A DNA stretch of 64,000 nt from Eutreptiella sp. 'Long Island Sound 2002' (lineage: Eukaryota; Euglenozoa; Euglenophyceae; Eutreptiales; Eutreptiaceae): assembly GCA_964036045.1 (NCBI GenBank), contig OZ038382.1, forward strand, positions 79,831,918 through 79,895,917, given 5' to 3'. The position numbers were made by a program, and so were the translations under genes. Numbering within the stretch: the first letter of the stretch is position 1; the number at the start of each line of letters is the position of its first letter. Below the pieces are notes generated by a model. The model saw only the letters and a program-made list of their open reading frames with translations. It did no database searches and had not been told where the DNA came from. Of this stretch, positions 5,071 through 50,295 are shown in pieces.

Positions 5071-5189
5071 CAACTGAATACATACACGCAATAAGACATG
5101 CCGCGGAGAAGCAAAAAGGTATGAAGGGACTAGAAGGGAGAAAGAAGCGGGAGGAGAGCGCACCTGCACAAAAGGTAGGTATGTAGGTC

Positions 5190-8516: not shown

Positions 8517-10037
8517 TCACCTGCGGGTGGCCGGTGCGGGACTTGCGTCGCGTGTGCGCGGCAGTGCGTCATCGCTGCACTGCCGGTGGCCGGCTGCGGT
8601 GACCAGGAGGACCGTGTGCCGCGTCCATCGCCCCGCGTGCTCCTGAAGGCGTTTTTCCGGTTTCGGCTCGTGGCAGCTCAGGTTCCCGGGGGGGTTTCCC
8701 ACGCGCCGCACGAGGGCGCTGCGGAGGGCACTGAGGATCTCGTGCACAAGGGCCGCGTGTGCCGCCTGGGCTTCTGTCTCAGTGCCGATGGCGGGCTGCA
8801 GTTGCTCGCCAATTGCCACCTCCTGAATCTGTTGGATCGCGAAGACGTGGCACAGGTTGGTTGCTGTGGGGGTCTCCGCCGTCCTCTCGCGCTGGGGGAT
8901 GGCCTCCAGCTGCTTCTGGCCGTCCAGGTGGAATCTGCACGTCGCCGTCCAGTCCCTGGTGTGCGGCCAGCGCCGCCGCGCCCACCGGCAGAGGCAGAAC
9001 AGGATGGCCGTCAGGGGGTCTGGGAACTGGCGGCTGGTCAGGGGGATGGGGTTGTCCAGCAGGGGTGTGTTCGCTGGGAGCATGGAGTCGACAGCCTCCA
9101 GGTTCCAGTGGCTCTCCTGTGGGTGCGCGGTGATCCGCACTTGGTAGTAGTGGCCACTTTCCAAAACGATCATGGCGATGGTGCTGGGGTCACGTCCGCG
9201 TGGCAGGGGCGCTGCGCGTGCCGTCTCCGGGTACCGCTCCACCATGCTCGTGAGGTTAAGCCCCCTGTCGCGGACTGTCCTGCTTTCCCATTCCGCCAGG
9301 CCTTCGTGCGGTGGGATGCGGAGGGTTTCGGCTCTGGGTGACGGGGCGGCCCGCTCCCGGCCTTCGGTGCCGGGCGCAGGCCTGGGGTCTGTCGGTGGCG
9401 CTATGAGCGTGTGTGCCCAGCCCAGGTGTGGGACCCATATGCCTCCCTGGTCCGGCTGGTGGGTGTTGAACCACCAGATCCACGCGTCAACAAGGTCGTC
9501 CGTGAACTGTGACCTGGGGGTGACGAGCGCCTGGAGCTGCCGCATAAAGACGTTGGTTGTTGCGGCGTGTGGCAGGGGGACCACAGCGAAGAGCCTGGTC
9601 GGGTGGACGTCCTTGAGGTGTTCCCCGAGGGCTGGCACTAGCTCGCTGGAGGCTGCGGTGGCGTGGATGCCGTAGAGCGCCCTCAGTTCCACGTCGTCAA
9701 AGGGACCCCTGTTCCTCCGTTGCTGTGATCGGGGGGGTGGGGGGGGCGTGGCTTCCCGGTCCTGGTCCCGTGTGGCGCCAGTCGGGGAGGGGTGCCCTGG
9801 GGCGGTGCCGGGGTCTCCCCTAGGCACATTCCCCGTGGAGGGCTCCCGTTGCTGGGGCATCGAACTGGCCGCGGCGGTAGGCAGTGAGTCACCTGACTCC
9901 TGAGGGCCTGAGGTCACTGTCATATTTGCGTCCGCTCCTGGGTCGCTTGCGTCGCGCTTCCGTTGTTGCAGTGCGTCCTCCGCGCCCCGGTGGTTTGGCT
10001 GTGTTGCTGCTGGGGTGGGGAACCCCGTGGTGTACAA
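8517..10037 (-). CDS. Ulp1-like (C48 fold) domain ORF of LINE B
   Basis: This 506-residue frame has a disordered first 110 residues. Residues 175-210 (QFTDDLVDAWIWWF, then IWVPHLGW) resemble the Ulp1 start (LxDxWLND...F) and following strand. Residues 290-320 contain GHYYQVRI (His296), then WNLEAVDSML (Asp317), the spacing of the Ulp1 His and Asp. Gln337 fits the oxyanion Gln; six residues on, where Ulp1 has its catalytic Cys, there is Thr343, while Cys348 matches the second, non-catalytic Cys. Ulp1 enzymes process or remove SUMO. The homologous LINE C region supports a real domain. Activity is doubtful if this alignment holds. Confidence 0.5.
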   Translation of the reverse strand: MYTTGFPTPAATQPNHRGAEDALQQRKRDASDPGADANMTVTSGPQESGDSLPTAAASSMPQQREPSTGNVPRGDPGTAPGHPSPTGATRDQDREATPPPPPRSQQRRNRGPFDDVELRALYGIHATAASSELVPALGEHLKDVHPTRLFAVVPLPHAATTNVFMRQLQALVTPRSQFTDDLVDAWIWWFNTHQPDQGGIWVPHLGWAHTLIAPPTDPRPAPGTEGRERAAPSPRAETLRIPPHEGLAEWESRTVRDRGLNLTSMVERYPETARAAPLPRGRDPSTIAMIVLESGHYYQVRITAHPQESHWNLEAVDSMLPANTPLLDNPIPLTSRQFPDPLTAILFCLCRWARRRWPHTRDWTATCRFHLDGQKQLEAIPQRERTAETPTATNLCHVFAIQQIQEVAIGEQLQPAIGTETEAQAAHAALVHEILSALRSALVRRVGNPPGNLSCHEPKPEKRLQEHAGRWTRHTVLLVTAAGHRQCSDDALPRTRDASPAPATRR

Positions 10038-11449
10038 GCCCAGTTGGTCGGGTGGCCGGTGCCCGCGTTCGGGACCGGTGTCATCGCGTCCCGCTTGCCA
10101 GGGGGGGGGGGTGTTGGGAGGGCTGTCCTCCTACCGCTTGTGCAGACCGTTGGTCGGCCACGGGTTCCCTTTCGCCGTGTGTCCGTGGCGTGCTGTCCCC
10201 CTGGTAGCAGGGCCGGCCACCGACCCTCGGAGGGAGGTGGTGGATGAGCTGGATGCTCCGTCTGCTGCCCGGTGGGTGCCCATGTTAAGCGCTGCCTGTC
10301 GCTCTCGCTCGGCTGGCGTGGGAATGGTGTGGCTGTGCGCCCGTTCGGTGCGGGGCCTCTTGGACCGGCGTCTAGGATCGGTGGCAGATAATGTCCATTG
10401 GGCGCGGAGGTCGTTGGGACCTCCATGGCCTCTGTCTGTATCCTCGTGGAAGACGACTCGCCGTGCTGGGGGAGGCGGCGTGCGGCTGCAGCACCGGGAG
10501 CGGCTAGGGTTCCTTGTCCCTTGGCGCTGCCCCGGCTTGCCGCCTTGCATCCCTGAGTTGTGAGGACTGCCTTGGCCCCTCTGCCGGGCGAACGGTCGGA
10601 GGGGGCTTCTGTACGTGCCAGGAGGGGAACCCCGTTGGCGTTCTGGGGAATTACGGCGCGCCGCCTGCCTGGAGGGCTCCGGGACGTCTTGGGACCGCGG
10701 CCGCCCGTGGCCTGGGGCGTGCCCCAGGGATGTCCCAGATGTTGTGCCTTTGCATGGCCGCACAGATGCGCAGGGCTGAGCGCTGGTGCCATTGCCAGTG
10801 TAGTCCGTTCATTTCGTCCGGGCTGTAGGCCCCCATATGCGCCATGAGCCAGGTTGCCACATAGTGCCATTGGCCGGGGTGGTCCATGGTGGCGGCTGGC
10901 GTGTGCTCCGTCTGATGGCTGAAGGTGATGTCTGCCATGGTGCGGGTTCCCTCCCCTGACGTGGCGGGACCGCGAAGTAAGCAGCCATCGGATGCTGACC
11001 GCCAGGGCAAGCTGCTCCCCTGTGGTGAGCCTGTCGATCCACATGCCCAAGTCCTGGGCCGCCGCCTGTTCCGCATGGTCGCTGGGGTGGCGGGCGTTGC
11101 CTTCCAACCGTGCGTAGTTCACATGCCCCCGCCCCAAGGGCGGGGCCGTCCCCGGTGGTTGGCCAGTAGGCTGGCTAGCGGTGTTGGTGCCCGCCTCCAC
11201 GCGCGTCCCGCTTCCTGGGGCGCCGCGCTCGTCTGGGGCCTGGTCCGCTGCCCCGCTCGTGGTCGGGGGCCCGTCATCCAAGGCGGTAGCATGCTCAGTT
11301 TGCCCCAGGGCGGTGTAATCATGCTGGAGGTGTGCCTGGCATGACACTGTGAGGGATGTGCCCTCTGCATAGTCGCGCTGGGGCTCCGGGCGGACGCACG
11401 GGGCCGCCGGCGTTGGGACCGCGTGGGGGTCACTTATGCAGGACTTCAT
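10038..11449 (-). pseudogene. LINE B spacer ORF between unnamed domain and Ulp1-like domain
   Basis: A 509-codon frame (9,920-11,449) is open but mostly low complexity. The part with protein-like character is DLGMWIDRLTTGEQLALAVS near 11,020-11,060; after a frame change near 10,980 it continues at 10,651-11,076 with WHYVATWLMAHMGAYSPDE and WHQRSALRICAAMQRHNIW. The Trp-rich pieces suggest a folded domain. I do not recognise it. A frameshift inside it fits a dead copy. Confidence 0.35.
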
Positions 11450-11876
11450 GAAGGCATCGAAAGAGTCTTCGTTGCGGTTGTGTCCGCTGGGCGACGCTTC
11501 CCTGTCGGCCGCGCGCTGGGGCGTGTCGGGTGTGGTTTCCAGTGCTTCTCACTTCGCGGCGGTTTCAGGTGGGCCCCGTGGTGGCGCCTCCCCCGACGTG
11601 CTTGCGTCCGCGTGATGCGCCGGGGTAGCAAAGGGGGCGGCGTCCGCGCGACCTGCGGGTTGTGTCCCATGGGCGAATGGTGGGTGGAGGCCGGCCTCAT
11701 GCCCTGCGTCCGGCATTGGTTCTTCACATTCCGCACCAAGTTGGCCAGCGGTTGATGCCTTGCCGCTTCCATTTGCCGCCATGCCCCCGGGTCGGCATGC
11801 TGTATTGCTGGCTGGTCCTCTTCCGAGCTAGGTTTCCCCGTTTGGGGGAGGCCAGCCGCTGGTGGTGGCGTTTCGG

Positions 11877-13398
11877 TCAGCTGTGGGGGTCCCGTGCGCG
11901 CCGCGTGGCTGCGTCGCCCGTCGGTCGCGCCGCCTCTGGAGCGCGGACTTCCGACACGGGTGGTGGCCTGGGCCGGCTTCCCGGGCCTGCGGACCGCGGG
12001 GTATCAGCCGGGACGGTGGCGTGTGCCGGGTCCGGGTCTTGGCCCGGGCCCGGGTTGGGGGCCGGGCAACTGGAAAATGATGGTTCTGTGGGCCGCACTG
12101 CCGGCCGGGCTGGTGGGGTGTGGTGCCGCTGGGACACCGGTTCGGTTTGTGCCGGGGCCTGCAGATGGTCTCCTGGGGCCGCTGTGCTGTGCGTCGCCGG
12201 AGCCTGGGGATTGCGGCTCTCAGTTGGGTTGTGGGTGTGGGGGTGCACGGTGCCGGAGGGCCGGGGGTTGGTGCTGTCGGTCGGGGTAGCGGTACGTGTC
12301 TGCGTGGAAGGGCCTTCGGATGGCGCGTATGCTGGGCCCTCCCTTTGCCGGTCAGGTGTGCCATGGCTTGGGCGGGGCTCCGGGTGGGCTTGTGTCGCCG
12401 CTGCCCGGCTGGCTGCCGGCTGGCAACCGCGTGTGGACGCGCCGGGTGGTGCTTGCGGTTGTGGAGCCGGACTTCCTGTGGGGCCCGAGGCTGGGCCCAT
12501 GTGCGGATGTGCGGTGCCGGGGGGTTGCTCGAGTTGGGTGCCTACTGCCGCCGTATTCGTGGGGCTGGGCACGGCTCTGCACCCAGCAGGTGACGCCCGG
12601 TGCCCCTGGATCCCTGTGGCCGCGTGGCGTTGTGGCTGGTATCGTTGTGCCGCTCGTTTGGACGCACGCTCCTGTCGGGGGGTCTGTGGCATGCCGGCCC
12701 TTGATGGTTTCGGAACGTCCGTAGTCCGCGTGGCGTCGGCGGCGTGGTGTCGGTGTGGTGAGGTGACGGGTGCGTGGGGGGTGAAAGTGGATGGGATGGA
12801 TGACGTGGAGGCCGTTGGGCCTTGTGGCAAGCCGACGCCCAATGGTGCCAGAGCGTGTACATTTGTGGCCCTGGTCGCTGCTGTGGCGCGTGATCGGGGC
12901 GGGAGGGTGGTGATGGTCGCGGTTCTCGGGGAGGAGGAGGAGGAGCTGTGGTGCCGGGCACCACCGGCAGACATCCTGGCCACTGCCGCATTGCCATATG
13001 GGCCCTGGCCGCGGCGGTGGGACGTGCGGCTGTTGGGCGCGCCGTACCAGTTGTGTGAGGCTGCGGGGGAGGGGCATGCCCCTCCATCTAAAATAGGCGG
13101 CCATCAGCCTCTTGGTCGCCTTCTCGGTCAGAAGCCCGCTGCTTTGGAAGAAATCTCCCGATTTGCCGCCATGGGCGCCGCGGACGACCCCCATTGCCCA
13201 TTCTGCGTCCCCCACCAGCCAGCCAAAGGTGAACGGGAGGCCGGTAGTGGGGGGGACGACGGTGGTGCGGTAGTTGTTGAGGTTCATGGTGGTGACAGGG
13301 CCCCAACTGTCTCGCAGATTGCCAGCGGGGGGTAGACTGCCCCGTAGCGCGTTGTCATAATGTTCTAGTCTGGGACGTAAATCGTGGGGTCTGCCCCC
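11877..13398 (-). pseudogene. LINE B unnamed domain plus Pro/Ala/Ser/Thr-rich spacer
   Basis: From 13,398 the frame of the RING ORF continues past one TGA for about 37 codons to MNLNNYR at 13,287, then runs to 12,352. Residues such as FGWLVGDAEWAMGVVRG and LMAAYFRWRGMPLP align with copy 2 of LINE C (YLADAADHAWTIAVATG and ILLALYLHHCDLHLP, about 56,585-56,760), so a domain is conserved downstream of the RING finger in both families. The rest, with all three frames open, is low-complexity spacer in which I cannot choose a frame. The function of the domain is unknown. Confidence 0.4.
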
Positions 13399-13836
13399 TC
13401 AACTGGCAGCGCCCATGTTTGGTGCGCCCCAGGGGGGGCGGGGTGGCGGTGTTGCCGGATCCTCGTCGGTGAGGACGTCCAACCACTCAACGTCGGGGCT
13501 GTCCCCCGCGCCATTGTTCCAGACATTCTTCTGAATCAGGGTGCGGCGTGTGTGGAGCGTGAGGTCTTTGGCTTGTGTTTCGCGCGGCGGCGGAGCTGTG
13601 CAGAGTGGATGCGGTCGTCGGCAAAGTCGGCATGACCAGAAGTTTGTGATGCACGGGCTGCAGAACCAGTGCAGCTGCTCGGTGCCGCCGCAGCCGAGGT
13701 CATGCCCAAGGAATTGCGCGTCGTTCTCGTCTTTCACCTCCCAGCAGACTCCGCAAGGGTTTTTCCGGCCGCGGATGTGGAGCTTCACTTTCGGGCATCC
13801 TGAGGAGAGGTATTGTTTGCGGGACGATCGGGTCAC
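13399..13836 (-). CDS. RING-finger ORF of LINE B
   Basis: The 145-residue frame has Cys28, Cys31, Cys49, His56, Cys59, Cys62, Cys69 and Cys72, giving C-x2-C-x17-C-x6-H-x2-C-x2-C-x6-C-x2-C, a full C3HC4 RING arrangement (13,621-13,755). HWFCSPC is the recognisable core. RING fingers bind ubiquitin or SUMO conjugating enzymes and act as E3 ligases, but related zinc folds also serve as binding modules. It starts shortly after the zinc knuckle ORF of the same strand. A single TGA ends it at 13,399 although the same frame stays open beyond. LINE C copy 2 has the same finger at 56,354-56,461, with the sixth ligand changed. Confidence 0.6.
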   Translation of the reverse strand: MTRSSRKQYLSSGCPKVKLHIRGRKNPCGVCWEVKDENDAQFLGHDLGCGGTEQLHWFCSPCITNFWSCRLCRRPHPLCTAPPPRETQAKDLTLHTRRTLIQKNVWNNGAGDSPDVEWLDVLTDEDPATPPPRPPWGAPNMGAAS

Positions 13837-14014: not shown

Positions 14015-14670
14015 CTACACCTGGACGCGGTGCTGTAGCTGTGCGTCCGCTCTCTTGACGGCAGTGAGTTGCATGTGACGTATTGTGGCCTTGGGTTCTG
14101 GGGCGTGGTCGGCGATGACCCTGTAGAATTGGAGTGGCACTGCTCCCCTGAGCACCGCTTTCTTGATCTCCGGTTGCCGCATCAGGCGCGGAACCTCATT
14201 TGCCGGTGGCGTGGGCGGGCCCGATCCGGCCTGTTGTGCTATGGTGTTCTCTGGCGTCAACGTGGCCAGGTGGTTGCCTCCTTGGGCCAACGGGCATTGT
14301 TTGAAGTGTTCCCATGTCTCTGGCTGTTGGAGATGGCAGGGGCATATGGTGTATTCCGGGGGTATGTATATACCCCGTCGGCCATACCAGCGTGCCACCC
14401 TGTCTAGGAGGGGCAGTCGTTCGAGCAAGAGGTGGGCACGTCGTGTTTGTAGGTGTACCGGCAGTAGGGATGGGTCAAGAGCTGAGAAGTAGAATGCGGT
14501 TTGCAGCTTATGTTGGAGGTGGTTCAGGAGGGTGTTGTCGGCTTGGCTGCCTCAGATGTGCGCCATGGTGCGGATGTCGTTGTAGATTCGGTTGTGCGGT
14601 ACCCAGGCTGGTGGTTCCCCGGGATGTGGGATCGGCGGTAGGTGTTGGAGTGTTGTGCGTGCTCCAAAAC
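14015..14670 (-). pseudogene. LINE B pol C-terminus with CCHC knuckle
   Basis: Reading from about 14,670, one frame gives TTLQHLPPIP, meets a stop near 14,552, then continues to LLERLPLLDRVARWYGRRG and CPCHLQQPETWEHFKQCPL (about 14,285-14,345). The last is a C-x-C-x9-H-x3-C knuckle. Each piece aligns with LINE C pol (HLQHLPPIP, LLTRYHRWY, CICGHAEEETWDHFKVCPL), so this is the end of ORF2. It is in a different frame from the RT ORF because a deletion removed the RNase H between them. The tail IKKAVLRGAVPLQFYRVI aligns with LEAVRRGLVPTAVYTLL in LINE C. Confidence 0.65.
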
Positions 14671-14675: not shown

Positions 14676-16961
14676 TTACACCTCACGTACTTCCCCATCA
14701 GTTGGCTGTGGCCGTCCCGTTTGTGTGGCTGCGTTGCGCAGGTGACGTTCCAGGACTGACTTGTTGGGCCACTCCGGGTAGTGTAGGAAGGAGACTTGAT
14801 GTGTGCCCACCCGCTGGAGGACCAGCATCTGGTTTGGGGTGACTCGTACGAGGTGTAGGGTGGTGCCCACCACGTGGAGAGTGGTGGTGCTTCTCTTTGG
14901 CCGTCGACCCACATCGGTGTGTAGGACCGCCACAGGGCCGGTCTCCCCGCACCGATGGTTCGTTTGGATGACATGTTGGTGTTGGGGTAGCAGGAGTTGT
15001 AGGTGGTTCCCGGTGGTTGTAGGTGGTACGCGGGTTCCCACCTTGGTGGGGATGCCCTGCTGGTGAAGTATGCATTGGGGGCAGGTGTTGCGATGGTACT
15101 GGGCCTCCCGCAGTGTCAGCGTGAAGACTTCCCTCACCCCCGGTTCATGATTGTGCATGAGACAGTGCAGGTGGGCCGCGGTGTGAGCTGTGTACGCGTT
15201 GTTGACGAGGTGATCCGTGTTGTCCCCGTAGTATGGTGGCGACGCCGCGCGTACCGCCGCGGGTAGTGATGTGGGCCGGTGGCCGTGGATGGTCCACGCT
15301 CGCCGTACCGTGGTAGTGGCCGCTTGTAGCATGTGTTGGGGGTGCGTTAGGTGTAAGGCCTGGAGCCCTATAGCTGCGTTGAGCACAGCTTGTAGGAAGT
15401 ACGCCAGGGCCTGGGTGGAGAGTGCAACGATGCGCGCTATGACTAGCGTCCGTGTCAGCTGCCGTATCAGGTTCGGTGGTAGGGTGACCCCGTTGGCGGT
15501 GGCCGCTTGTTGGACCCCGAGGTAGGTGGCCGTGCTTACTGGGTTGGTGGGCGGGTCCCCGGGGCGGAGGAGTGGCGGCGGTGCATTGAGCACCATTGTG
15601 GCAGACTTGACGTTGCGTACCAGTAGCTGGTTGCCCTCCATATAGTTGGTGACAGCATGGAGTACTTCGGTGGCCCTGGTGGGGTCCGGGTTAGTTGACA
15701 GGGGTTGCCGGGCGGTGGCGGTCACAACCGCCATGTCCTCCGCAACTGCCAGGAGCGTGGTCCGTAGGGGGCCTGGTGCCACGTCCAGGTATGTGCGTCG
15801 GATGTAAAATGCCAGCGGGAGGGTGACGAGTAGGAAGAGGAATGGGCCTTCCGCACCCCCTTGCGCGACTCCACTGGCGGGGTGGACCCATGGGGTGGTG
15901 CCCACATTGGTTTTTACTGCATACTTGCGGGTGGCGAGGTATGCTTGTATATATAGGAAACCCTGGAAGGGGAGTCCCATCTGTTTCCAGACAGCCTGTA
16001 GGAGGCGGTGCGGGGTGTTGGGGAAGGCACCCTTGACATCCAGGGACGTGATGATGAGGCTGATCGGGTCCATGTCTACCACAGCGTCTTGCATAAACAT
16101 GGCCTCCAACGGCGACCTACCCGGTATGGCTCCCCACATTGTGGGCGGTATAGCTCGGTACACTGCCGGGGCCACCCGTTTGAGGATGAGCATCCATACG
16201 AGTTTGGTCTCCGTTGTGGCGCATACTATGGGTCTCCAGTTTTCTGGGTTCGCCCAGTTGCCTTTCTCATACAGCGGGTGTACCAGGTACGCCCAGTCGG
16301 GTGGTACGTCCATTTTCCCGATGGCGATATCCCACAGGCGCGCGGCCAAGTGTCTCTTCAGGTTCAGCAGGAGCCTGCGATCGAGTTCCGCCGGGAGTCC
16401 GTCCACTGCCGGGCTTTTTCCCGGTTGTAGTGTGTACAGGACTTCGTCGAGTTCCCTACTGGTGAACGGGGTTTGGTGCATGTCTCGTCGCTGTGTTTGG
16501 CTGTAGGGTTTTGGCAGGTGTGATATCAATTTCTTCATGTACACTGATAGCTCACCATCCTCGGTGTTGTGTTGGCGCTGGAAGCTGTTGAGGACTTCCT
16601 CCACGACCACTTTGGGATCGTTGGTCACTGTCCCATCTTGTAGGCGTACCGCCTTGATGCCTCGGTGGCCTGTTTCTCCCAGGACCTTGTCCACGTGTTT
16701 TAAGGACTTGTATGGTCCGGGGTTTTGAAAGTAGCGTTGTTGTTCTTGTGCTAGCTCCTTTGCCCGGCGGATGTGCCATTCCCTGAGTTGCCGGCGCGTG
16801 GTGTCCAGTTGTGCGGCAATGTCCTGGGCGTCATGTTGGGCCTGCGGGTCATGTGAGTGCACTTCCGTGTGTAGTGCCCGCTTGTCGCCGGGTGATGCCG
16901 TCCTGTGCGAACCAGTGTTTCCCCTGGAGGCCGCAAGCCGTGGCCGCTTGTCGCATGGCAA
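14676..16961 (-). CDS. Reverse transcriptase ORF of LINE B
   Basis: The 761-residue frame has the full LINE RT core: FTSRELDEVLYTLQPGKSPA (the start of the domain), PLYEKGNWANPENWRPIVC, IITSLDVKGAFPNTP (motif A Asp), SGVAQGGAEGPFLFLLVTLP (motif B) and LLAVAEDMAVV (motif C). Motif C has Glu-Asp where Asp-Asp is expected (15,735-15,740), which would normally cripple polymerase activity. The region after the core, NTCPQCILHQQGIPTKVGT, aligns with LINE C NTCPRWILAQHGV. The frame ends at TDGEVREV where LINE C continues into about 460 residues including RNase H. The methionine at 16,961 is probably internal to ORF2; the upstream linker sits in another frame (16,849-17,190). Confidence 0.8.
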   Translation of the reverse strand: MPCDKRPRLAASRGNTGSHRTASPGDKRALHTEVHSHDPQAQHDAQDIAAQLDTTRRQLREWHIRRAKELAQEQQRYFQNPGPYKSLKHVDKVLGETGHRGIKAVRLQDGTVTNDPKVVVEEVLNSFQRQHNTEDGELSVYMKKLISHLPKPYSQTQRRDMHQTPFTSRELDEVLYTLQPGKSPAVDGLPAELDRRLLLNLKRHLAARLWDIAIGKMDVPPDWAYLVHPLYEKGNWANPENWRPIVCATTETKLVWMLILKRVAPAVYRAIPPTMWGAIPGRSPLEAMFMQDAVVDMDPISLIITSLDVKGAFPNTPHRLLQAVWKQMGLPFQGFLYIQAYLATRKYAVKTNVGTTPWVHPASGVAQGGAEGPFLFLLVTLPLAFYIRRTYLDVAPGPLRTTLLAVAEDMAVVTATARQPLSTNPDPTRATEVLHAVTNYMEGNQLLVRNVKSATMVLNAPPPLLRPGDPPTNPVSTATYLGVQQAATANGVTLPPNLIRQLTRTLVIARIVALSTQALAYFLQAVLNAAIGLQALHLTHPQHMLQAATTTVRRAWTIHGHRPTSLPAAVRAASPPYYGDNTDHLVNNAYTAHTAAHLHCLMHNHEPGVREVFTLTLREAQYHRNTCPQCILHQQGIPTKVGTRVPPTTTGNHLQLLLPQHQHVIQTNHRCGETGPVAVLHTDVGRRPKRSTTTLHVVGTTLHLVRVTPNQMLVLQRVGTHQVSFLHYPEWPNKSVLERHLRNAATQTGRPQPTDGEVREV

Positions 16962-17053
16962 GGTTGAGGTCCGTCTCGTCTTGTTGGCCCAGGATGCGCT
17001 GCACCGTGCGGTAATACGCCATCCATTTGTGTGTGTCGTGCTCGTCTGGTGGT

Positions 17054-17842
17054 CTAATGGGTGGTTGTTCTTCGTGGTCCATGTCTTCCTTGGAGGCCGG
17101 GTACTTGCAGTACCTTGATTTGTACCTCCAGGGGTCGATGTCCGGTGATCTTGGACGGCAGGACGTGGTATTGCGCCTGTGCCACCTCAACGTGTGCCGA
17201 GTCCGCGTAGAAGAGGTCGATGCGGGAGTCTGCCGAGCCAGGTTGCGGTGGTCGGTGCGAGGGCTGGCCTCCCAGAGAGGCTGTGGGGTCCTGCAGGCCC
17301 ATGTGCTGCATGGCCATTTGCACCGCTGTGTCCTCGGGCGTCTGTCGCCCCCCGCGATTGTCCGCCGATGAAGCCGCGTTGAAGTCTCCCATGATGACAG
17401 TCGGCCCCATCATGGCAATTTGCTGAAAGGCCTCCATGAGGTGTTCGAGGAATCTCTCCGTGGCGTCCCCAAAGGGGACACGTACGTTGATCACATTCAG
17501 CTGCCACGTTGGGCCGACCAGTTCATATGCTGCCAGGCCGCCTTCTATGCCCAGGTGGTGGTTGACATGTACTTGGACCTCACTTTTGTGGGATATGGGC
17601 ACTCCCTTGAACCACGTGGTGTGGTATTGGTGTCCCGTCCTGGTGGGGACGGGGGTTAGGCTGGGATGGGCTACCTGGGTTTTGAGGGCCTGCTCCTGCC
17701 ACACCGTGGCGTCTGGGTCGCACCTCGCCATGACAGGCACGTCCTGTAGGTCCGGAACTTTGGCTGCGTCGTACAGGGCGCCTGGTTCGTTCAGGGACAT
17801 GAGAGTGGCTAGCGCATTGGTGACTTCGTTGCTGTGTGCCAT
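17054..17842 (-). CDS. APE endonuclease ORF of LINE B
   Basis: The 263-residue frame carries VIMGDFNAASSADNRGG (the GDFN motif, Asp and Asn), SRIDLFYAD (the RID motif) and ITGHRPLEVQ (the last motif, usually SDHxP, here GHRP). Target-site nicking is the expected role. The Asn/Glu motifs at the N-terminus of the fold are not obvious, so the true start may lie upstream in another frame. After GHRPLEVQIK the frame goes out of register; the continuation (YPASKEDMDHEEQPPIRPP) is in the frame of 16,849-17,190, which shows a frameshift near 17,125 before the RT. Confidence 0.75.
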   Translation of the reverse strand: MAHSNEVTNALATLMSLNEPGALYDAAKVPDLQDVPVMARCDPDATVWQEQALKTQVAHPSLTPVPTRTGHQYHTTWFKGVPISHKSEVQVHVNHHLGIEGGLAAYELVGPTWQLNVINVRVPFGDATERFLEHLMEAFQQIAMMGPTVIMGDFNAASSADNRGGRQTPEDTAVQMAMQHMGLQDPTASLGGQPSHRPPQPGSADSRIDLFYADSAHVEVAQAQYHVLPSKITGHRPLEVQIKVLQVPGLQGRHGPRRTTTH

Positions 17843-17881
17843 GGTGGCCCCTGTGGGGCCGCTGGCGTGGCGTGGTACTAG

Positions 17882-18448
17882 TCATTGTCCCAGGCGCAGT
17901 TTCAGGTTGATCGCTGTTGCCACCCTTTGCTCCTCTGGTACATCCAGCTCCTCCAGCCATGCCTGAGGCACGTCACCTGTCGAGACGGTGCCCGGCGGTA
18001 ACTGGTTGGCGGGTGTGCGGAGCTGCACCGGGCACTCCAGGAACTGCCTGCCGTCCCAGACTTCGAGGTTTGAGGTTTCCGCTGCTTCGCCCCACTCAGG
18101 GAGTGCCTGCCATTTGATCTTCAGCTGCAGGTTGCCATGTTGGCCAGGTGTCGCCAGTCTGCCCTGTATCTTGCCCCGGAACCATACAAATTGCTTCGGT
18201 TGTCCTCTAAGCGTGGCCCCGAATACCCCCTGTACTTCCGCGCCGTCTGGCCATTCGGGGTGCATGGCGGCACGTTCTGCCGCCGTGAAGAATGGGCACA
18301 TTTGGGCCTTTCGCTTCGGTTGTGGCTCAGGCGGTGGTGGCGCTGGGGCTGCTTTCGGCTCCGGCTTTGGCCGTTTGGCCCGGCGGGCCGAGGTGTCCGC
18401 TCCCCGTGGACCGGGCCTCGGCTCGGGCCGGGGTTGTTCTGGTGCCAA
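17882..18448 (-). CDS. Unrecognised basic ORF upstream of the LINE B endonuclease
   Basis: The 188-residue frame has a Pro/Arg/Lys-rich first 50 residues, then a more folded-looking part with CPFFTAAERAAMHPEWPDG, FGATLRGQPKQFVWFRGKIQ and LKIKWQALPEWG, and ends with Leu-rich DVPQAWLEELDVPEEQ. It sits 40 bases upstream of the endonuclease frame, so it may be the N-terminal part of ORF2 or the end of an ORF1 protein. The basic head could bind nucleic acid. I do not recognise the fold, and no homolog lies in LINE C within the window. Confidence 0.4.
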   Translation of the reverse strand: MAPEQPRPEPRPGPRGADTSARRAKRPKPEPKAAPAPPPPEPQPKRKAQMCPFFTAAERAAMHPEWPDGAEVQGVFGATLRGQPKQFVWFRGKIQGRLATPGQHGNLQLKIKWQALPEWGEAAETSNLEVWDGRQFLECPVQLRTPANQLPPGTVSTGDVPQAWLEELDVPEEQRVATAINLKLRLGQ

Positions 18449-19598
18449 TTTGGGGGCCGGCTTCGGCGCGTTGCGGTTTTAAAAGATGCTGTATGCCGGT
18501 CCTTGCCCCTCTCGTGGTCGGTGCATACCTGGAAGTTGGTTCGCTTGTTCTTGTAGGTTGGTGGTGCGAAGTTTGAGGGTTCGTTCCGTGTCCGCCGGCC
18601 AGGACATCCAGCGTTCCGCCCTTGCTGTCCCGTGTTTTCGTATGTAGGCTGCCAGGTTGCGAGTGAATGTGAGACACGTCGCGGGCACCGTGGTGTCTGT
18701 GGCTGGGGCATCCACTGTCCAGTGCATCCCCCCTTTTCAGGGCTAACCAGTGCCCACGGGGGTGGTTGGTGTGGTGGGTCGAGTGTTTAGAACGGTCCCC
18801 CAGTGTCACTGGGGTCGCTGTCTTCGTTACCGGTGTGAATGTCTGCACTCTGTCCGTTGTGCCCGTGACGTTCCATTCTGCTACCCACCAGGTGTGTTGG
18901 TGGCACGTTAGTGTCACCGTGGGGGTATGTGGGGGCCTGTGAATAAAGGCCTTCCAATCAGTGACCTTCGGACCTTCTGTTTTTCGGTTGTGCTGCTCCA
19001 GTGGGCTGGTTAGGTTCACAAGATGGTTCACAAGGTCCGGTGTCAGGGTGTCTTCTGTTTCCTGCACCCTATCCCTACGTGCCGTGGGGTGCCCCGCGGC
19101 ATCGTCCCAGGCGTCCGTGGTGGCCGCCAGCGTGTTGGTCGCTAGTGTGATGATATCGTCCGTTAGGCCTTCCAGGATGAAGTACTTTTCTCCCGCCAGA
19201 TTGGCCGGGAGTCGGGCCGTGTGTTTCATGGTGAGGTGTAGCAGCGCCCTGTCAGGGCCTGGGGCCGTTGGGTCCACAGGCCTGGGGTCGCGTGCGCCGC
19301 GTCTTGCTAACGGGTGCCGTGGTTTTTCGGTGTTGGGTAGTTGTGGCCCCATGGCCATATGGTGCACTAGATCGAGGGGGACGGCTTGGCCCTTGGTGTC
19401 TCCCGTCGTCAGGTACACTCCTTTTGCGCCTGTTACCTTGTTTAGGTAGATACCTGGGAGTGGGGCGGGCTGTAGGGGCAATGGCTGGAACAGGGCGTCG
19501 GGGCAGGGGTGCCCGCAGGGGGGATCCCCGGGTCGGAGCCCTTGGCAGTGGTCATCCATGCCGTGGGGCACGGGGTATAGTATGTAGGGCCCTGCCAC
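18327..19598 (-). CDS. Unrecognised ORF of the LINE B leader (423 codons)
   Basis: Residues 1-290 look like real protein: YLTTGDTKGQAVPLDLVHHM, GEKYFILEGLTDDIITLATN, TPDLVNHLVNLTSPLEQHNR and KVTDWKAFIH are of mixed composition with few repeats. The last third is out-of-frame low complexity, and the continuation in another frame (18,479-18,727) begins MHWTVDAPATDTTVPATC and includes AERWMSWPADTERTLKL, so a frameshift near 18,730 is likely. The position, before the endonuclease, is that of a LINE ORF1, but I see no coiled coil, RRM or zinc knuckle. Confidence 0.4.
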   Translation of the reverse strand: MAGPYILYPVPHGMDDHCQGLRPGDPPCGHPCPDALFQPLPLQPAPLPGIYLNKVTGAKGVYLTTGDTKGQAVPLDLVHHMAMGPQLPNTEKPRHPLARRGARDPRPVDPTAPGPDRALLHLTMKHTARLPANLAGEKYFILEGLTDDIITLATNTLAATTDAWDDAAGHPTARRDRVQETEDTLTPDLVNHLVNLTSPLEQHNRKTEGPKVTDWKAFIHRPPHTPTVTLTCHQHTWWVAEWNVTGTTDRVQTFTPVTKTATPVTLGDRSKHSTHHTNHPRGHWLALKRGDALDSGCPSHRHHGARDVSHIHSQPGSLHTKTRDSKGGTLDVLAGGHGTNPQTSHHQPTRTSEPTSRYAPTTRGARTGIQHLLKPQRAEAGPQIGTRTTPARAEARSTGSGHLGPPGQTAKAGAESSPSATTA

Positions 19599-19747
19599 CG
19601 TGCGCAGTTTTTTGGGGGTTTAGGGTGTTCAACCACCCCCCCACCCTGATGCTGACAGAGCCTTGGTGGATCCAGGTGGCTTGGTCGCGGTGGATGTCGT
19701 GGTGTAGGGCCCTTGTGATGGTGCCCCACATTCTGCGGTGGGTGGTG

Positions 19748-20905
19748 TCATCTGAGGTGGGGAATCCTGTGTCGATGAGAGGCATCCTGGCGTTTGCGAG
19801 AGCGGAGTTGATGATGTTTCGGGGGGGACGAGTTGCTGTCGGCACCCCTGGCGCTGCTTGTCACGGGTTTGATGCCTTGACGGGGCATTCGCCTCCGATC
19901 GAGGGGTTCCTGCCAGGACGGGTCCAGGTGCCAGATGGGGGCTGGTAGGTCCCCGTATTGTGCGCAGGTGTACACCGTGTACGCTGTGCCTTCGGTGTCG
20001 GCCAGCAGTCTGTACGTGGACTTCCGTGCTTCGCTATAGGTGACGAGGATATTTGAGGCAGGGGCGGCATAGTTGAGGTGCGTGTGCGCCAGGGCGTGTG
20101 TGATTTGCACTTCCCTGCCTTTCAGATTTTTCCCGTGGTCTTCTAGTATGAGGTGTACCTCCCACAGGCTGTGAAGCCGGAGGTTACCGTCTTTGTCGCG
20201 TATCGGTTGGTGTATTTGCCGCCCTGCCTGCTGTCCTTTGTTGGCGTTGTGGTGCGCACAATGCTCGACGAGGACGTTCGGCGTCCAGTCCTGCGGGGCA
20301 CCCTCCCTGTGCGCCATGGCTTGGGCCGCCTTGGCGAGTGCCGTGACGGTGGGCAGCAGTGGGGGCTCTGCGACCTGGGGCACCATGCCGGTGTGTGTTG
20401 GGAAGTTGCAGTATATTGTGAACATCGCAGGCTGGTAGGCGTTGTGGGTGTCTGGGAGGGTCAGAGAGAGCGCCTCTTTGATCTGGGTTACCGCCTCTGG
20501 GTGTATGGTGGTGGGGTAGTGCCAGAGTATGTGCTTGATGGGGTCCCGGTGTGTACGGGCGGCACGTCCCGCGGGCTTCATGGCCTGCGGTGTGAGGGTG
20601 TCGTCGAGGGCAACATCGTTGAGGCGGTTGGCTTCAGCCGCCGACCATGTCTGCAATTCCGTCAGGGTGGGGTCGCTCTTGGCGCATTCCAGGGTATAGT
20701 GGATAGCCGTCCATTCCAGGTCGGGGTCCAGGGCAAAGTCGGTGCCTGCTGTTGCGTTTATCCAGACAGCTTGTGTGGGTCTCGCCTGCGGCGTTTGGTC
20801 GTAGTCTCCCAGGGCTGTGCCTTCAATGGTGGCTGTGCCCTGGGTGGTTATAAAGAGGTGCATGGCCTGTGTTAGTTGTACTTCGTGTGGCGTGAGGAGG
20901 CGCAT
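19748..20905 (-). CDS. Unrecognised ORF of the LINE B leader (385 codons)
   Basis: A protein-like frame of mixed composition. Recognisable stretches are VQLTQAMHLFITTQGTATIE, WTAIHYTLECAKSDPTLTEL, EAVTQIKEALSLTLPDTHN, HSLWEVHLILEDHGKNLKG and TYRLLADTEGTAYTVYTCAQ. The last 60 residues turn basic and low complexity (HHQLRSRKRQD). I cannot name a family. It lies between two other unknown ORFs on the same strand, suggesting one long ORF1 polyprotein cut by frameshifts. A capsid-like or chaperone role would be only a guess. Confidence 0.4.
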   Translation of the reverse strand: MRLLTPHEVQLTQAMHLFITTQGTATIEGTALGDYDQTPQARPTQAVWINATAGTDFALDPDLEWTAIHYTLECAKSDPTLTELQTWSAAEANRLNDVALDDTLTPQAMKPAGRAARTHRDPIKHILWHYPTTIHPEAVTQIKEALSLTLPDTHNAYQPAMFTIYCNFPTHTGMVPQVAEPPLLPTVTALAKAAQAMAHREGAPQDWTPNVLVEHCAHHNANKGQQAGRQIHQPIRDKDGNLRLHSLWEVHLILEDHGKNLKGREVQITHALAHTHLNYAAPASNILVTYSEARKSTYRLLADTEGTAYTVYTCAQYGDLPAPIWHLDPSWQEPLDRRRMPRQGIKPVTSSARGADSNSSPPKHHQLRSRKRQDASHRHRIPHLR

Positions 20906-21164
20906 GACTTGGATCGTTGTTACCCCTGGGAGAATTTCCTTCAGATCGATGGTGCCTGTCGGTCGTCGCCATGTCGTTGCTGTGCCCCTTGTGTGGTTCC
21001 CCCCTCGGGGTTAGTTGGTAGTTGTCTGGGATGTGACGCGAGGAGAGGGGCTTGTCGAGTTGTTGAACGTTTGTGGTGGCGCTGGGGGCTTCGTACTATT
21101 TGTGGGCTGGTGGGCTGTGCTCTCTTTGTGGGGGTTCGTGTTCGTGTTACGGGGGCGTTTGGGG

Positions 21165-21590
21165 TTATGTTGGGCTAGGGGGTATTTCTGGCTCCGGTAT
21201 CGGTTGTGGCGCTGTTGGCGGAAGGCTGGTGACGCTCTGCGCCCTGGTGGTTGCATCTTCGTGCAGGTAGAACTCCAGTGCTGGTGCTGCAACAGGGTGC
21301 CACTGGCGTGGGTCGTTGTGCGGGGTATGGAAGTGGATGCTTTGCTGAGTGGACCAACTGTGGTAGCCGAGGATGGCGTTCGTGATTGCGGGGTCGTTGT
21401 TGTACCCGAACGGGTGGTCGGGCCTTGAGCAGTCTTCGAACGTGGTGCGAACGGTCGTAGCGAGTGCCCTGATTTCTCCGTCTGGCACTACGTCGTCCCA
21501 TGTTGTACGGGACGTGGTACCCGGGGGTCCAGTGTGTCCCTCTAGAAACTCCGTTTCGTACTTGGTCCAGTCTTGTAGCATGCATTCCAC
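21165..21590 (-). CDS. Unrecognised ORF of the LINE B leader (141 codons)
   Basis: The frame reads MECMLQDWTKYETEFLEGHT, then EIRALATTVRTTFEDCSRPD, then NAILGYHSWSTQQSIHFHTP, and ends in a Pro-rich tail. It is in the same frame as the ORF at 21,837-22,379, separated by a stop and about 250 bases, so the two may once have been one protein. No known domain is visible. Confidence 0.35.
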   Translation of the reverse strand: MECMLQDWTKYETEFLEGHTGPPGTTSRTTWDDVVPDGEIRALATTVRTTFEDCSRPDHPFGYNNDPAITNAILGYHSWSTQQSIHFHTPHNDPRQWHPVAAPALEFYLHEDATTRAQSVTSLPPTAPQPIPEPEIPPSPT

Positions 21591-21836
21591 CTACGCAGCT
21601 TCAGTGTACGGTTGGATACTGTGCTCCGCTAGGGTGGGGGAATGGGCCAGCTGCTTAGATAGGTTCCAGTGTCGGAGAGCCGCTCTCGGTGGGGGAATTG
21701 CGGCTGGCTCGGGCGTGGGCTCCTTCCTCTCGGTTGCCCTGTGTCCGTGTCGGATGGCGTGCACCAGGGTGTATTCGTTATCTTCTCGTCCGGGTGTCCA
21801 TTCTAGGTGGGCTTCACCCGTGGATGCGTTGGTCGG

Positions 21837-22379
21837 TCAGCATGTTGCTGTGCGTGCGTAGGGGGGGGCAGTTTTGTCATGCAGGACGATAGTGTGGCCC
21901 CGCGTCCAACTGTGCAGGGTCAGGACGAGAGCCACCGCTGTTTCCTCGAGGGTTGCTGGCGGTGGGGTGTCGGATTGTTGGATGAAGGTCAGGGCGTCCT
22001 GCACGCGCGGGGATGCTGCGAAGTTCGTCCAGGCTCCAGTCTTGGTTTCCCGTCCCTGCACCACCACTCCTTCCGCGGACTGTTGCTGGGCCTTTTGCAT
22101 GTCTTGTCGCAGTTCCTGGATATACGCCCCTGGCTCTCGGTTTTCTGCTGTTCCCGTTATCCGATGGTCCGTTTCGTTGAGTGCCCGGTACAGGCTCCAT
22201 GTGTGCCGTTGATGTGCGGCGGCCGCCGCCTGCAGTACGCGTTGGATGCTGTTCTGCAGTGGATTGTTGTGTAGGTCCATGGGGGCGTGGTTCCCCGAGA
22301 CGTCGAGGCCACTGGGCAGTGATTCCAGGGGCGCGTTAGGGGCTTGGGGAGGCATGGATACTTGGGAGTTGGTTTCCAT
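21837..22379 (-). CDS. First ORF of LINE B (180 codons), unknown
   Basis: This is the first substantial minus-strand frame after the presumed 5' end at about 22,830, giving a leader of about 450 bases. Residues 45-65 (QRVLQAAAAAHQRHTWSLYR) and 85-105 (YIQELRQDMQKAQQQSAEGV) are likely helical. The stretch TLEETAVALVLTLHSWTRGH is also helical. It could be the N-terminus of an ORF1 protein. I recognise no motif. The start at 22,379 is simply the first Met. Confidence 0.4.
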   Translation of the reverse strand: METNSQVSMPPQAPNAPLESLPSGLDVSGNHAPMDLHNNPLQNSIQRVLQAAAAAHQRHTWSLYRALNETDHRITGTAENREPGAYIQELRQDMQKAQQQSAEGVVVQGRETKTGAWTNFAASPRVQDALTFIQQSDTPPPATLEETAVALVLTLHSWTRGHTIVLHDKTAPPYARTATC

Positions 22380-22929
22380 CGCGGTGTCCGATCACGCACG
22401 GTGTACAGCGCACAGCGGGAAGAAACCCAACACACCCACGCAGCGACCCAAGGGCACGCCGACCGCTGCCCCGAGACGGCCGGCACAACTGGGCCCGACG
22501 GGCAAAGAGCAACCGACGAAAGGAGAGCACAGCGACCGCTGGACCCGAAACAGCACCACACCCTGTCACAACACACTGACTACAGCGACAGAACCACGCA
22601 CCGAACCACAAACACCACACCGTGTCGGCGTACCCCGAGCCACGACCACACGGAGTACAGCGCCCAAAACACGGACCACTGCCACACACCTCAACACGAG
22701 GCGCAATGCCACAGCGCCCGGGACAACGCCCTGAGGCCGGAACCATAAACGGTGCCGTTGGTCACGGAACCAACGCAGCCACGAGCGCGGGAGGACCACA
22801 CACACGGAGCGTCACTATCTGTGTCAAGTGGAACACCCTAATTACGTTGAGAAAGTGTACTTTAGGCATCCAAAGAGAGATAAAAACACTTAGGTTTGTC
22901 TTAGCATCAACATAAGGGTTTTAAGGGGG

Positions 22930-25042: not shown

Positions 25043-26560
25043 TGCAGTTGGTGACGTGGAGCGGCGTCGTGTAGCCGCGTCGTCGTGTTGTGTCGCGTAG
25101 GATGGTGTTTGGTCGTGTGGCGTCGCGTGGTTGTGTCGTTGCGTCGTGTCGCAGCGTGTTTTGTGTCGTGTCGTGTGGCGTTGGGTGGTGTCTCGCTGTG
25201 CTGGGCATTGGCTTTGCCATGTCGCGTCGCGTGCTGTTTCATGGTGGTCGGTTGTGTGGTGTAGTATTGCGTCATGTTACGTGGTGTTGTGTAGTTTTCG
25301 TTGGGTTGTGGCGTTTCTTGTTGCGTGACGTTGTTTTGTATCGCTGGTTGTTGTCGCGTGCCGCCCTGCGGCATGTTGTGTAGCGGTTGTGTTGTGTGGC
25401 GTGTTGTGGCGCGCTGCGTCGTGCTGGGTTGTGTCCTGGTGGTGGTATGTGGTTGCGTAGGGTTGCGGTTTGTGGTGGTGTTTACGTTGTGCAGCTTGGT
25501 GTGGCGCCGCAGTGTGTCGTGGTGTGCCGTGTTTTGTGTTTGTACTTGGTGGGTTCCAAGGGTTACGTCAATTGTCTTGTTGCTGTGTTGTGCAGTGTTT
25601 CCTTGTGTGCTTGTGTTGTGTTGCGCGTTTCGTGGTGCTGCTTCCTGTCCTGGTGTTCGGTATTGTGTGTTGGGTTGGGGTTGGATTGGTGTTGGATTAT
25701 GTCTTGTTGTGTTGTGTGGTGCCGTGTCATGTGGTGTGGTGGCGTGTCTTGTGGCGGTCCGTTGTGGTGCGTTGCCTTGTGGTTTGTTGCGTTGTGTTGT
25801 TTTGTTGTCGTTGATTCTGGTGTATTTTGAAGGGTTCTCGTTCTACGGCGTTGTTTTGTGGCATGTTTTGTGGCCCCTTTCGTTGTTAGGTGGTTATTAA
25901 GACCGTGTTGTTTTGTTGGTACGTTAGTTGCCCGCCATTGTTGCGTCGTGTGGCTCCGTGTTATGTGTTGTTGTGTTCTATCGTGATGTCGTATGGTTCC
26001 TGTATTGTGTCGTGGCGTTACGCGTGTTGTGTTGTCGTGTCGTGTCGTGGTGCGGTGGGTTGTATGTTGGTGTGTTGCGTTGGGTATTGTAACGCGGTGT
26101 TGTGTGTTGTTGCTTGGCGGTTGGTTGCATTGTGTAGCATGTTGCGTTATTGTGTATCGTTGTTTAGTTGTTTCTTTTGAGGTAGTGTATTATGTTGGCG
26201 GGCTTGTTGTCTTGAGTTGTGTCTCGGCGTTGCGTGCTGTTGTGTAATAGGTATCTGTTTGCGCTTCATTGTTGTGTCATGTAGCGCCATCGCGTTGTGG
26301 TTTGTTGTGTCATGTGGCGTGGCTCTCTCGTTGTGTCGTGGTGGTGCGCTGGTTGCGGTGTTGTGTTGCATCGTGTTGTGTGTTCTTGAGTGGTGTCGTG
26401 CGGCGTTTGGGTGTGTGTAGTGGAGATTGGTTTTTTGCGTTGTCGTATGGTGTTGCATGGTTTTTTGTTGTGTTGTGGTGTGTTCGTGACGCATAGTGTT
26501 GTGTCATGTCTCGTTGCCGTGTGCTGCTTAGCGGCTTGTTGTTTCGTTGGCGCTTCTTCA
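25043..26560 (+). repeat. G/T-rich leader of LINE C copy 1
   Basis: About 1.5 kb in which G and T dominate the plus strand, made of degenerate GTCGTGTTGTG-like words without a fixed period. It recurs at 48,707-50,225 in copy 2. Open frames on both strands (Val/Cys/Leu-rich on plus, Thr/His/Gln-rich on minus) follow from the composition and differ between copies, so I do not call a gene. Confidence 0.6.
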
Positions 26561-26633
26561 TGTTCGGTGTTCGCACCGCCTCGTGGTGCCGTTCATTTCG
26601 GTTTGCTCCGCGGGCAAGGTAGGTATCATGTGG

Positions 26634-26642
26634 TAGGAATAG
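26634..26642 (+). promoter_or_regulatory. Decayed TATA-like site in LINE C copy 1
   Basis: TAGGAATAG occupies the position of TATAAATAG in copy 2 (50,296-50,304). The flanks ATCATGTGGTA and ACAAGGGCATGGGG are identical, so copy 1 appears to have lost the box by two changes. Confidence 0.3.
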
Positions 26643-27058
26643 ACAAGGGCATGGGGATGAGAGGTTTCACGGGTATTTAGCGTGTGATGCTTTATGCTTG
26701 GTGACTCCACTCTTTGGTTTTGACGGCGCCCAAGAGTAAGCGCTTTTACGTGTGGTTCTTTGGTGTTTGCTTGCCCTGTCTTTTCCTGCCTAGCCCGTAG
26801 TGTAGTCGTTCTCCGCGTTGGTCTCTTGCCACTTTGGCGTCGTGCTTGTTGGGGCGTGGTACTCTCTTGGCGGCTCCATACCTCGCCGCGTCAGAACATA
26901 CTTTTGTTTCCGTCGCCGTCGTTCGTCGTGTTCACGCTCCTTTGGACTAGTCCTACGACATGCACTTTGCTAGTTGTTTTGGGGCATGCACGGGATTCAC
27001 TGTCTTGTCTGGATCTCTTCTCTGTTCTCGCGGAGGTCTGGATTTGTGGATTTTTCTG

Positions 27059-27110
27059 CTGACCTCGCCAAACAGCAGCGCAAAAATTCATTAGGGGGAA
27101 TTGAGGTCAG
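27059..27110 (+). repeat. CTGACCTC...GAGGTCAG inverted-repeat motif at the composition switch
   Basis: The outer 8-bp arms are perfect inverted repeats. Between them lie GCCAAACAGC and a G run. The motif is repeated in copy 2 (50,721-50,771) and, reversed, at 4,010-4,056. Upstream of it the plus strand is G/T-rich; from about 27,240 it is A/C-rich. Confidence 0.6.
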
Positions 27111-28387: not shown

Positions 28388-28755
28388 GCCCATCCGCCCC
28401 AGGGACAGGCGGCACACCCACGCCCACACACCCGCGCCCACGGCAAGTGAGCAACGGGCCCTAGCCGCCCGCCCCACGGACAGGCAGCCAGGGGAGGGCG
28501 AGCGCCTAACCCCAGGCGCGCCTTCACAACGGCGCGGGGCACCCCCCCGGGGACGCCCTCCTTACAGCGCGCAACGCCGGCTCGCAAGAGCGCACGCTGT
28601 GGGGCCGCCGCTGGGTCCGCACGCCCACACCGCCCGCGCCCGAGAAACAAGGGTCGCAGAACCCCGGCCGCCCGCCCCAAGGGACGGGCGGCCGGGGGAG
28701 GGACAGTGCCTGACACTAGACGCCCCTCACAACAGTGGAAGGCCACCCCCCCCGA
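28388..28755 (+). repeat. GC hairpin subrepeats in the LINE C leader (copy 1)
   Basis: Three related segments contain a CCGCCCGCCCCA...GGACxGGCxGCC hairpin, near 28,388, 28,466 and 28,668. The last is perfect: CCGGCCGCCCG pairs with CGGGCGGCCGG over 11 bp around a 10-nt loop. The larger unit, including ACGCCCACAC, CACCCCCCCC-type runs and CAGTGCCTGAC or GAGCGCCTAAC, repeats about every 200 bp. The RT homology begins about 30 bases after the last unit. Confidence 0.6.
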
Positions 28756-28785
28756 AACGGCCTCCCACCACCCCCGCGGCACGCA

Positions 28786-48393: not shown

Positions 48394-48706
48394 GTGGAGA
48401 ACTGCCGCCTCCGGTCGGCGGGGGGGTGGATGCCGCAGGCCGCATGGGAAGCCATGCTGGCCGATGCGCTCCTCCCCCTGGGAGTCCATCCCTGCAACCT
48501 CCCCGCGCCCCAGGACCACCCGTATGTCCTCAGGCACCTGCGGGAGACCCTCCGGGAGACACAGCGAGACGGCAGCCGCCTGTGGGACATCACCCAAAGC
48601 CCAGCCCCGCACACACACACCCCCTCACCACCCCAGAAGCGTCGGCGCACCGACACCGGCGGCACCCACAGCACCCAAGGAGCCCTGCGCGCCGCACAAC
48701 ACACAG
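48394..48706 (+). CDS. Small terminal ORF of LINE C copy 1, truncated
   Basis: The frame reads MENCRLRSAGGWMPQAAWEA, then MLADALLPLGVHPCNLPAPQ, then YVLRHLRETLRETQRDGSRL, and a basic end PPQKRRRTDTGG. Copy 2 has the same protein (60,385-60,777). In copy 1 the repeat junction at 48,706 replaces the last 20 or so residues. The conserved start is unclear because the frame is open upstream. Unknown function. Confidence 0.45.
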
Positions 48707-50225: not shown

Positions 50226-50295
50226 TCGGTGTCCGCACCGCCTCGTGGTGCCGTTCATTTCGGTTTGCTCCGCGGGCAAGGTAGGTATCATGTGG

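Follow-up and report, generated by a model that had tools for sequence, protein, structure and literature searches.

A giant LINE of Eutreptiella with a RING-like finger and an Ulp1-like domain in a third coding region

The 2.28-Gb genome of the euglenophyte Eutreptiella sp. 'Long Island Sound 2002' harbours a giant long interspersed nuclear element (LINE) of about 22.3 kb, which is of the apurinic/apyrimidinic endonuclease (APE) type and has three long coding regions. One copy lies on the minus strand of the window, by which we mean the whole stretch of 64,000 nt analysed here (contig OZ038382.1, C5 in our numbering, positions 79,831,918-79,895,917). Its third open reading frame (ORF3) comprises a RING-like zinc finger in the N-terminal part and an Ulp1-like domain in the C-terminal part, and it is nearly certain that both regions are members of the LINE and that the architecture is as described. 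The architecture is real, conserved and unusual; the finger is likely a RING, a protease at the C-terminus is plausible, and from the two we infer a function on host protein tags. LINEs are usually compact, with one or two ORFs, and the present element is, to our knowledge, the longest LINE known.

Alignment by blastn of a 22,338-bp copy from C8 (c2, see below) places the window copy at 5173-27192 on the minus strand, as are all its parts, where it matches reference positions 11-22338 in pieces. The body runs from 22834 to 5173, and a 5´ untranslated region (UTR)-like sequence at 27192-24376 is a candidate part of the same copy, with an interruption at about 24.4-22.8 kb. The ORF1 region (17882-22391), recognized from its ORFs and colinear across other copies, is broken by frameshifts into pieces at 21837-22391, 19748-21010, 18327-19619 and 17882-18478. 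ORF2 starts with an APE-type endonuclease (17054-17881; Pfam Exo_endo_phos, E 4.4e-8), upstream of a LINE-type reverse transcriptase (RT; 14676-17186; Pfam RVT_1, E 6.8e-13), and a zinc knuckle read directly from the sequence (YTICPCHLQQPETWEHFKQCPLAQG, 14279-14353) is found near its end. The RT of another copy, c1, had six PDB matches at E ≤ 0.01, to L1 ORF2p, to R2 and to a chain entitled RNA-directed DNA polymerase. Other copies have RNase-H-like motifs, recognized by reading, between RT and knuckle, a region in which Pfam at E ≤ 1 did not detect RNase H; about 1.3 kb that includes it is missing from the window copy. ORF3 is represented by the RING-like finger (13621-13755), by an ORF that holds part of a conserved middle stretch (10651-11118 in the ORF listing; TMADITF...HNIWDIPG) and by the Ulp1-like domain (8685-9704). 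The element ends at 5173-5188 with an (ACCT)n-like tail (ACCTACATACCTACCT), again by direct reading. This copy is damaged by frameshifts in addition to the deletion, and its RING and Ulp1-like domain lie in different frames.

Ten further copies (c1-c10) were fetched with 20 kb around each, and 5 kb of extra downstream sequence was added for five of them; long open frames in the RT list guided the choice, so that the sample is non-random. The host genome holds 20,750 first-look candidates for the RT (54 scored) and 13,747 for the Ulp1-like domain of this lineage (115 scored), all of them candidates rather than verified copies. About 74 of the 115 scored Ulp1-like rows, counted by eye, have no internal stop. 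The order of ORF1 pieces, endonuclease, RT, knuckle, RING and Ulp1-like domain recurs, and all ten fetched copies are colinear throughout their matching parts. Knuckle and RING are present in all ten, and the Ulp1-like domain in six (c1, c2, c3, c4, c6 and c7). Within the 20-kb slices, the domain is missed in c5, where an insertion shifts its place to the end of the slice, and in c8, c9 and c10, where homology ends earlier. Among viral contigs, no relatives were found by alignment of the RT or the Ulp1-like region.

The ends of the copies are those of a LINE. Copies c2 and c3 are 95% identical across 21.4 kb, and the full length is 22,338 bp in c2. A 5´ end is common to c2, c5, c6 and c8, with c3 beginning about 30 bases later; in c1, c4, c7 and c9 homology begins at differing inner points, some of which may be accounted for by interruptions. 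The 3´ end, with its (ACCT)n tail, is identical in the four copies in which it was reached (c1, c2, c3 and c7). Copy c2 is nested within another copy of the family and flanked on both sides by a 9-bp repeat, ACCAAGTAC; a target-site duplication is clear in this copy and possible in c7; c1 and c3 show no clear one. The family accordingly displays variable 5´ truncation, a constant 3´ end, a simple tail and target-site duplication, and has no long terminal repeat (LTR). The inner 5´ starts, the common 3´ end and tail, and the duplication around c2 form the pattern expected of target-primed LINE insertion. This agrees with a first-pass annotation of the window, which had described the element as a LINE with the RING and Ulp1-like regions downstream of the RT, and the recurrence of this order in the copies makes both regions part of the element.

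The same annotation had proposed that further copies be collected and inspected for the presence of both domains in one ORF. This is the case in c1, in which ORF3 spans 1,840 stop-free codons with the RING-like finger near the beginning; the Ulp1-like domain occupies residues ~1,373-1,725. Copy c4 has both domains in one frame, interrupted only by point stops, which fall within the RING, behind it and towards the end of the Ulp1-like domain. In c2, c3, c6 and c7 the frame changes between the two. A chance open frame in c1 was considered and rejected, as within its ORF3 stretch just one more run of 330 codons or longer is listed on this strand, and it has 349. About 0.5 kb past the domain, a second and weaker Ulp1-like C-terminal piece is seen in c1, c2, c3 and L029 (42-53% identity, within residues 277-352), and the 3´ region of c2 (L029) has a 378-bp tandem repeat in 2.6 copies.

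The RING-like pattern is found exactly where it had been annotated, and reads CGVC...C...H..C..C...CRLC with all eight ligands present and in order. The region is matched by 111 proteins at E ≤ 0.1. In an alignment of the window copy with 29 of these (30 members), Pfam at E ≤ 10 recognizes zf-C3HC4_3 in 22, zf-RING_5 in 21, Sina_RING in 17, zf-C3HC4 in 15 and zf-RING_2 in 12, the best E among RING models being 0.0045. The sole matches of the RING profile in the PDB at E ≤ 10 are to RNF4 (E 0.36 and 0.62). These weak but frequent Pfam matches lend moderate support, and we regard a RING fold of the ORF3 finger as probable.

The Ulp1-like motifs, too, occur in the annotated order, in the frame 10,130-8,517: FTDDLVDAWIWWFN at 9,465-9,506, GHYYQV at 9,138-9,155 and VDSM at 9,081-9,092, followed by a candidate catalytic Cys within NLCHVF at 8,841-8,858. 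The putative catalytic residues are His (9150-9152), Asp (9087-9089) and Cys (8850-8852). They are embedded in a conserved stretch of ~330 residues that is matched by 171 proteins at E ≤ 1; among the 120 listed, those beyond the window's own are 57-80% identical. Given these 171 matches and the 111 for the RING, the many genomic candidates and the specificity of the motifs, we judge the motif observation to be beyond chance. Conservation extends to a second LINE lineage, represented in the window by elements C and D (described below). His187, Trp202, Asp208-Ser209 and Cys298 (numbering of protein P0008) are the majority residues in both lineages at 22-30% identity, and the His-Asp-Cys catalytic order with conserved spacing is found in both. 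His187 is kept in 33/36 members of lineage 1 and 11/12 of lineage 2, Asp208 in 31/36 and 9/12, and Cys298 in 34/36 and 7/7.

A C48-style pattern, written post hoc with the domain already seen, has six hits among 1,478 ORFs with a length of 100 aa or more (289,617 aa, with the window Ulp1-like region counted twice), in every case at the Ulp1-like domain (5 loci). It is met by 59/120 lineage-1, 13/35 lineage-2 and 3/3 host C48 proteins, and it misses the domain in c4, c6 and the window elements C and D, because stops, truncation or frameshifts break the domain there. A stricter version was found in none of 20,000 shuffles of one protein. Two AlphaFold models of the domain agree in a helix followed by three strands around His/Asp, another helix, and then a helix at Cys. 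This predicted order fits clan CE and is taken as a hint, since the model confidences are low. Host C48 proteins have features of their own that were noted by eye: in L039, what look like BRCT-type repeats precede Ulp1, and in L040 a zinc-finger sequence of integrase-like character lies upstream of Ulp1 in one open frame, so that it resembles an Ulp1-carrying LTR element.

Elements C and D lie on the plus strand and carry a knuckle, RNase-H-like motifs and an Ulp1-like domain. In element D a RING-like finger was read directly at 56354-56461, and the frameshifted Ulp1-like domain at 58538-59234 matches the window copy at a tblastn E of 5e-6 (His/Asp motif 58814-58891, Cys motif 59187-59234). 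In element C the domain, also frameshifted, is at 46427-47136 (tblastn E 5e-5; His/Asp motif 46715-46792, Cys motif 47089-47136), and direct reading did not find a RING-like finger. At L038, of the same lineage, the frame differs between the RING and the Ulp1-like part. The lineage-2 domain has 15,904 first-look candidates in the host genome (150 scored; not verified copies). By eye, the stretch after the lineage-2 RING (element D past 56,461; L038 DAADHAWAVAVA...HSGGGLNVAARHILLALYL) may match the lineage-1 stretch of ORF3 that we call M3, and is possibly a small domain. The neighbourhood is further marked by a ~4.3-kb segment repeated at 25,044-29,402 and 48,706-53,064, with a spacing of ~23,662 bp and several blocks that are 87-95% identical; it links 5´ UTR-like sequence of lineage 1, on the minus strand, with a plus-strand RT of the other lineage. 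A tandem array of 65-bp units (61,321-62,100) lies beside element D.

Selection was estimated as the ratio of nonsynonymous to synonymous divergence (dN/dS), pooled over copy pairs that include some decaying copies. The ratio is 0.25 for the RT and 0.31 for the RING (55 pairs each), 0.32 for the RNase-H/knuckle region (45 pairs), and 0.55 for the M3 stretch (45 pairs), the middle stretch (36 pairs) and the Ulp1-like domain (21 pairs), with two linkers at 0.66 and 0.60 (45 pairs each). When c1 is compared with the window copy, synonymous (pS) and nonsynonymous (pN) differences have proportions of 0.287 and 0.132 in the Ulp1-like domain and 0.354 and 0.108 in the RING. Purifying selection is clear for RT and RING, and is weakly seen for the Ulp1-like domain.

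Several observations weigh against reading ORF3 as a RING joined to a clan-CE protease. The first-pass annotation had spoken of a full C3HC4 RING. The usual gap between the third Cys and the His of a RING is 1-3 residues, and the window copy has 6; the eight ligands are present, but the spacing falls outside the usual range. Even with the threshold at E ≤ 10, Pfam gives no match for the window RING. The RING matches of P0124 and c1 ORF3 fall below the cut-off, some non-RING models are each matched by one or two members of the RING set, and of the 111 proteins 46 fit a relaxed RING pattern. For the C-terminal domain, no match to Pfam Peptidase C48 (PF02902) was obtained, with no family of any kind for the window ORF at E ≤ 1, P0008 at E ≤ 5 or P0233/P0234 at E ≤ 1. 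The whole c1 ORF3 at E ≤ 5 gives three weak matches, to AAA_33 and two RING models and none to C48, the lone one over the end of the Ulp1-like domain being AAA_33 (E 0.35). PF02902 itself has 39 matches in the host genome, far below the number of candidate LINE copies. A PDB sequence search with the domain returned no matches. The hhalign score against a three-sequence host Ulp1 profile (14.55) was reached by 17 of 100 column shuffles, and hhalign against a single host Ulp1 sequence gave no support for Ulp1 homology. The AlphaFold models have a pLDDT (predicted local distance difference test) of 44.9 and 41.5, and Foldseek with the second model gave no matches at E ≤ 0.001 and 463 at E ≤ 10, with no Ulp1/SENP among the best 50. 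Ulp1 has a Gln ~6 residues before the catalytic Cys; this oxyanion Gln is absent here, where the alignment reads PTAPNLC / PTTLQLC. The dN/dS of the domain, 0.55, is only slightly below that of the linkers (0.60-0.66), and ORF3 is unbroken in one of the six fetched copies with the domain, from a sample picked for long open RT frames.

Of the Ulp1-like protease that had been annotated, the motif order therefore holds, and Pfam, PDB, hhalign, Foldseek and the confidence of the models lend it no support. The Ulp1 identity is not proven, its grounds being the order of the motifs, conservation and the predicted succession of strands and helices; by motif the domain appears Ulp1-protease-like at best, and we do not assign it to Peptidase C48. 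A clan-CE protease fold of the ORF3 C-terminal domain is nevertheless what we would favour, by a little.

The junction of ORF1 and ORF2 suggests a further peculiarity. In 13 of the 13 copies that have the place (the ten fetched copies, the window copy, L003 and L004), the stop of ORF1 is TGA, CTA comes next, and ORF2 lies in the same frame; the piece of a 14th locus, L007, shows no match to the endonuclease. In the window copy this in-frame stop, a candidate for programmed readthrough, is at 17879-17884. Stops in the context UGA-CUA are known to be leaky. Of 3,661 stop trinucleotides in 11 sequences (forward strand, all frames, junctions included), 25 are TGA-CTA. No stable stem-loop was found 3´ of the UGA-CUA in the window copy (z -0.44). 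ORF2 is a single run of 1,778 codons in c2 and c3. As ORF1 and ORF2 are in one frame and separated by UGA-CUA alone, a fusion protein is plausible, and the two may be joined through stop-codon readthrough at this site.

In the explanation that we favour, ORF3 would be an accessory protein. Its RING would recruit an E2 (ubiquitin-conjugating enzyme) and ubiquitylate proteins near the RNA-protein particle of the element, and its C-terminal clan-CE-type cysteine protease, with the order His-Asp-Cys, would strip SUMO or ubiquitin-like tags. Such removal could help the element past host control or past DNA repair at insertion. A giant LINE in which an ORF3 RING and a clan-CE protease act on host tags is the best explanation overall, and we give it an even chance. 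The action of the ORF3 domains on host ubiquitin or SUMO, taken as a claim of its own, is tentative. Marginally more tentative is the extended picture of a LINE organized in the manner of a small virus, which has a ubiquitin writer and a SUMO/ubiquitin eraser in a dedicated third protein plus an ORF1-ORF2 fusion made by UGA-CUA readthrough.

Alternative explanations differ in how much of ORF3 they accept. The downstream region could be host or other flanking DNA duplicated along with the LINE, as the four of ten fetched copies without an Ulp1-like match in their 20-kb slice might suggest. However, the whole 22-kb unit, its 3´ end and its tail are common to copies, first-look candidates number in the thousands, the miss in c5 is explained by the insertion that moves the place to the slice end, and the second LINE lineage has the same order. 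The shared unit, the common 3´ end and the nested insertion of c2 rule this explanation out, and we leave it next to no weight. A more serious contender is that the C-terminal domain is an unrelated structural or nucleic-acid-binding domain in which the Ulp1-like motifs are coincidental. It would account for homology and fold searches that were all negative or too weak, and for a dN/dS near that of the linkers, but it leaves a coincidence to be explained: motif order and spacing are common to two lineages at 22-30% identity, the motif is found nowhere else in 289,617 aa of ORFs, and the predicted strand/helix order fits clan CE, at low model confidence. We regard it as a real possibility, at somewhat less than even chance.

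The protease could also be genuine and serve the element itself. In a scheme resembling those of adenoviruses and retroviruses, it would mature the ORF1-ORF2 fusion of more than 3,000 residues as well as its own protein, and the RING would be an RNA/DNA-binding zinc finger. The single UGA-CUA that separates ORF1 and ORF2 in one frame in 13/13 copies speaks for such a precursor, as does the fact that clan CE includes processing proteases, but no cleavage site was identified, and the RING-like finger keeps a V before the second Cys and a CPLCR, which are hallmarks of ubiquitin ligases. Self-maturation is unlikely in our estimate, and ORF3 as a RING and protease acting on host tags is the reading we retain.

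Mobile elements with comparable domains have been described, and the first-pass annotation had noted that extra proteases of this fold are known from some transposons. This can be extended to LINEs: NeSL and Utopia-1_TSP carry an N-terminal Ulp1-like cysteine protease together with a restriction-like endonuclease (RLE; PMC4640811). The present element shares with these LINEs the possession of an Ulp1-like domain, but is of the APE type, has this domain at the C-terminus of a separate ORF3, and adds a RING-like finger; the NeSL/Utopia combination of RLE and N-terminal Ulp1-like domain was not found. The same source names the Dualen/RandI LINEs, in which an APE endonuclease and RNase H likewise occur together. 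Dualen has an RLE in addition; none was seen in the giant LINE by reading, with no profile test made. Ginger1 DNA transposons with Ulp1, OTU and PHD domains and Mutator elements with Ulp1 (PMC2836005) are likewise mobile elements with accessory Ulp1-type domains, but they are DNA transposons and not LINEs. The giant Gypsy element Burro, with the ubiquitination-linked motifs AIR1/RING and MATH_TRAF, is likewise a very long retroelement, but an LTR retrotransposon; the main text of that review uses the word non-LTR once, for L1 transduction (PMC6431247). In the open PMC literature, as far as its text was accessible, we recognized no LINE with a RING and an Ulp1-like domain, no 22-kb LINE and no UGA readthrough in a LINE.

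In conclusion, a LINE of 22 kb that has candidate copies in the thousands and an ORF3 under selection indicates that target-primed elements, too, can carry accessory genes, like giant LTR elements and Polintons. If both domains work, the element could edit the protein tags of its host. If the ORF3 domains do act on ubiquitin or SUMO, they would open a direct way to study how transposons escape or enlist the tagging and repair systems of the host.

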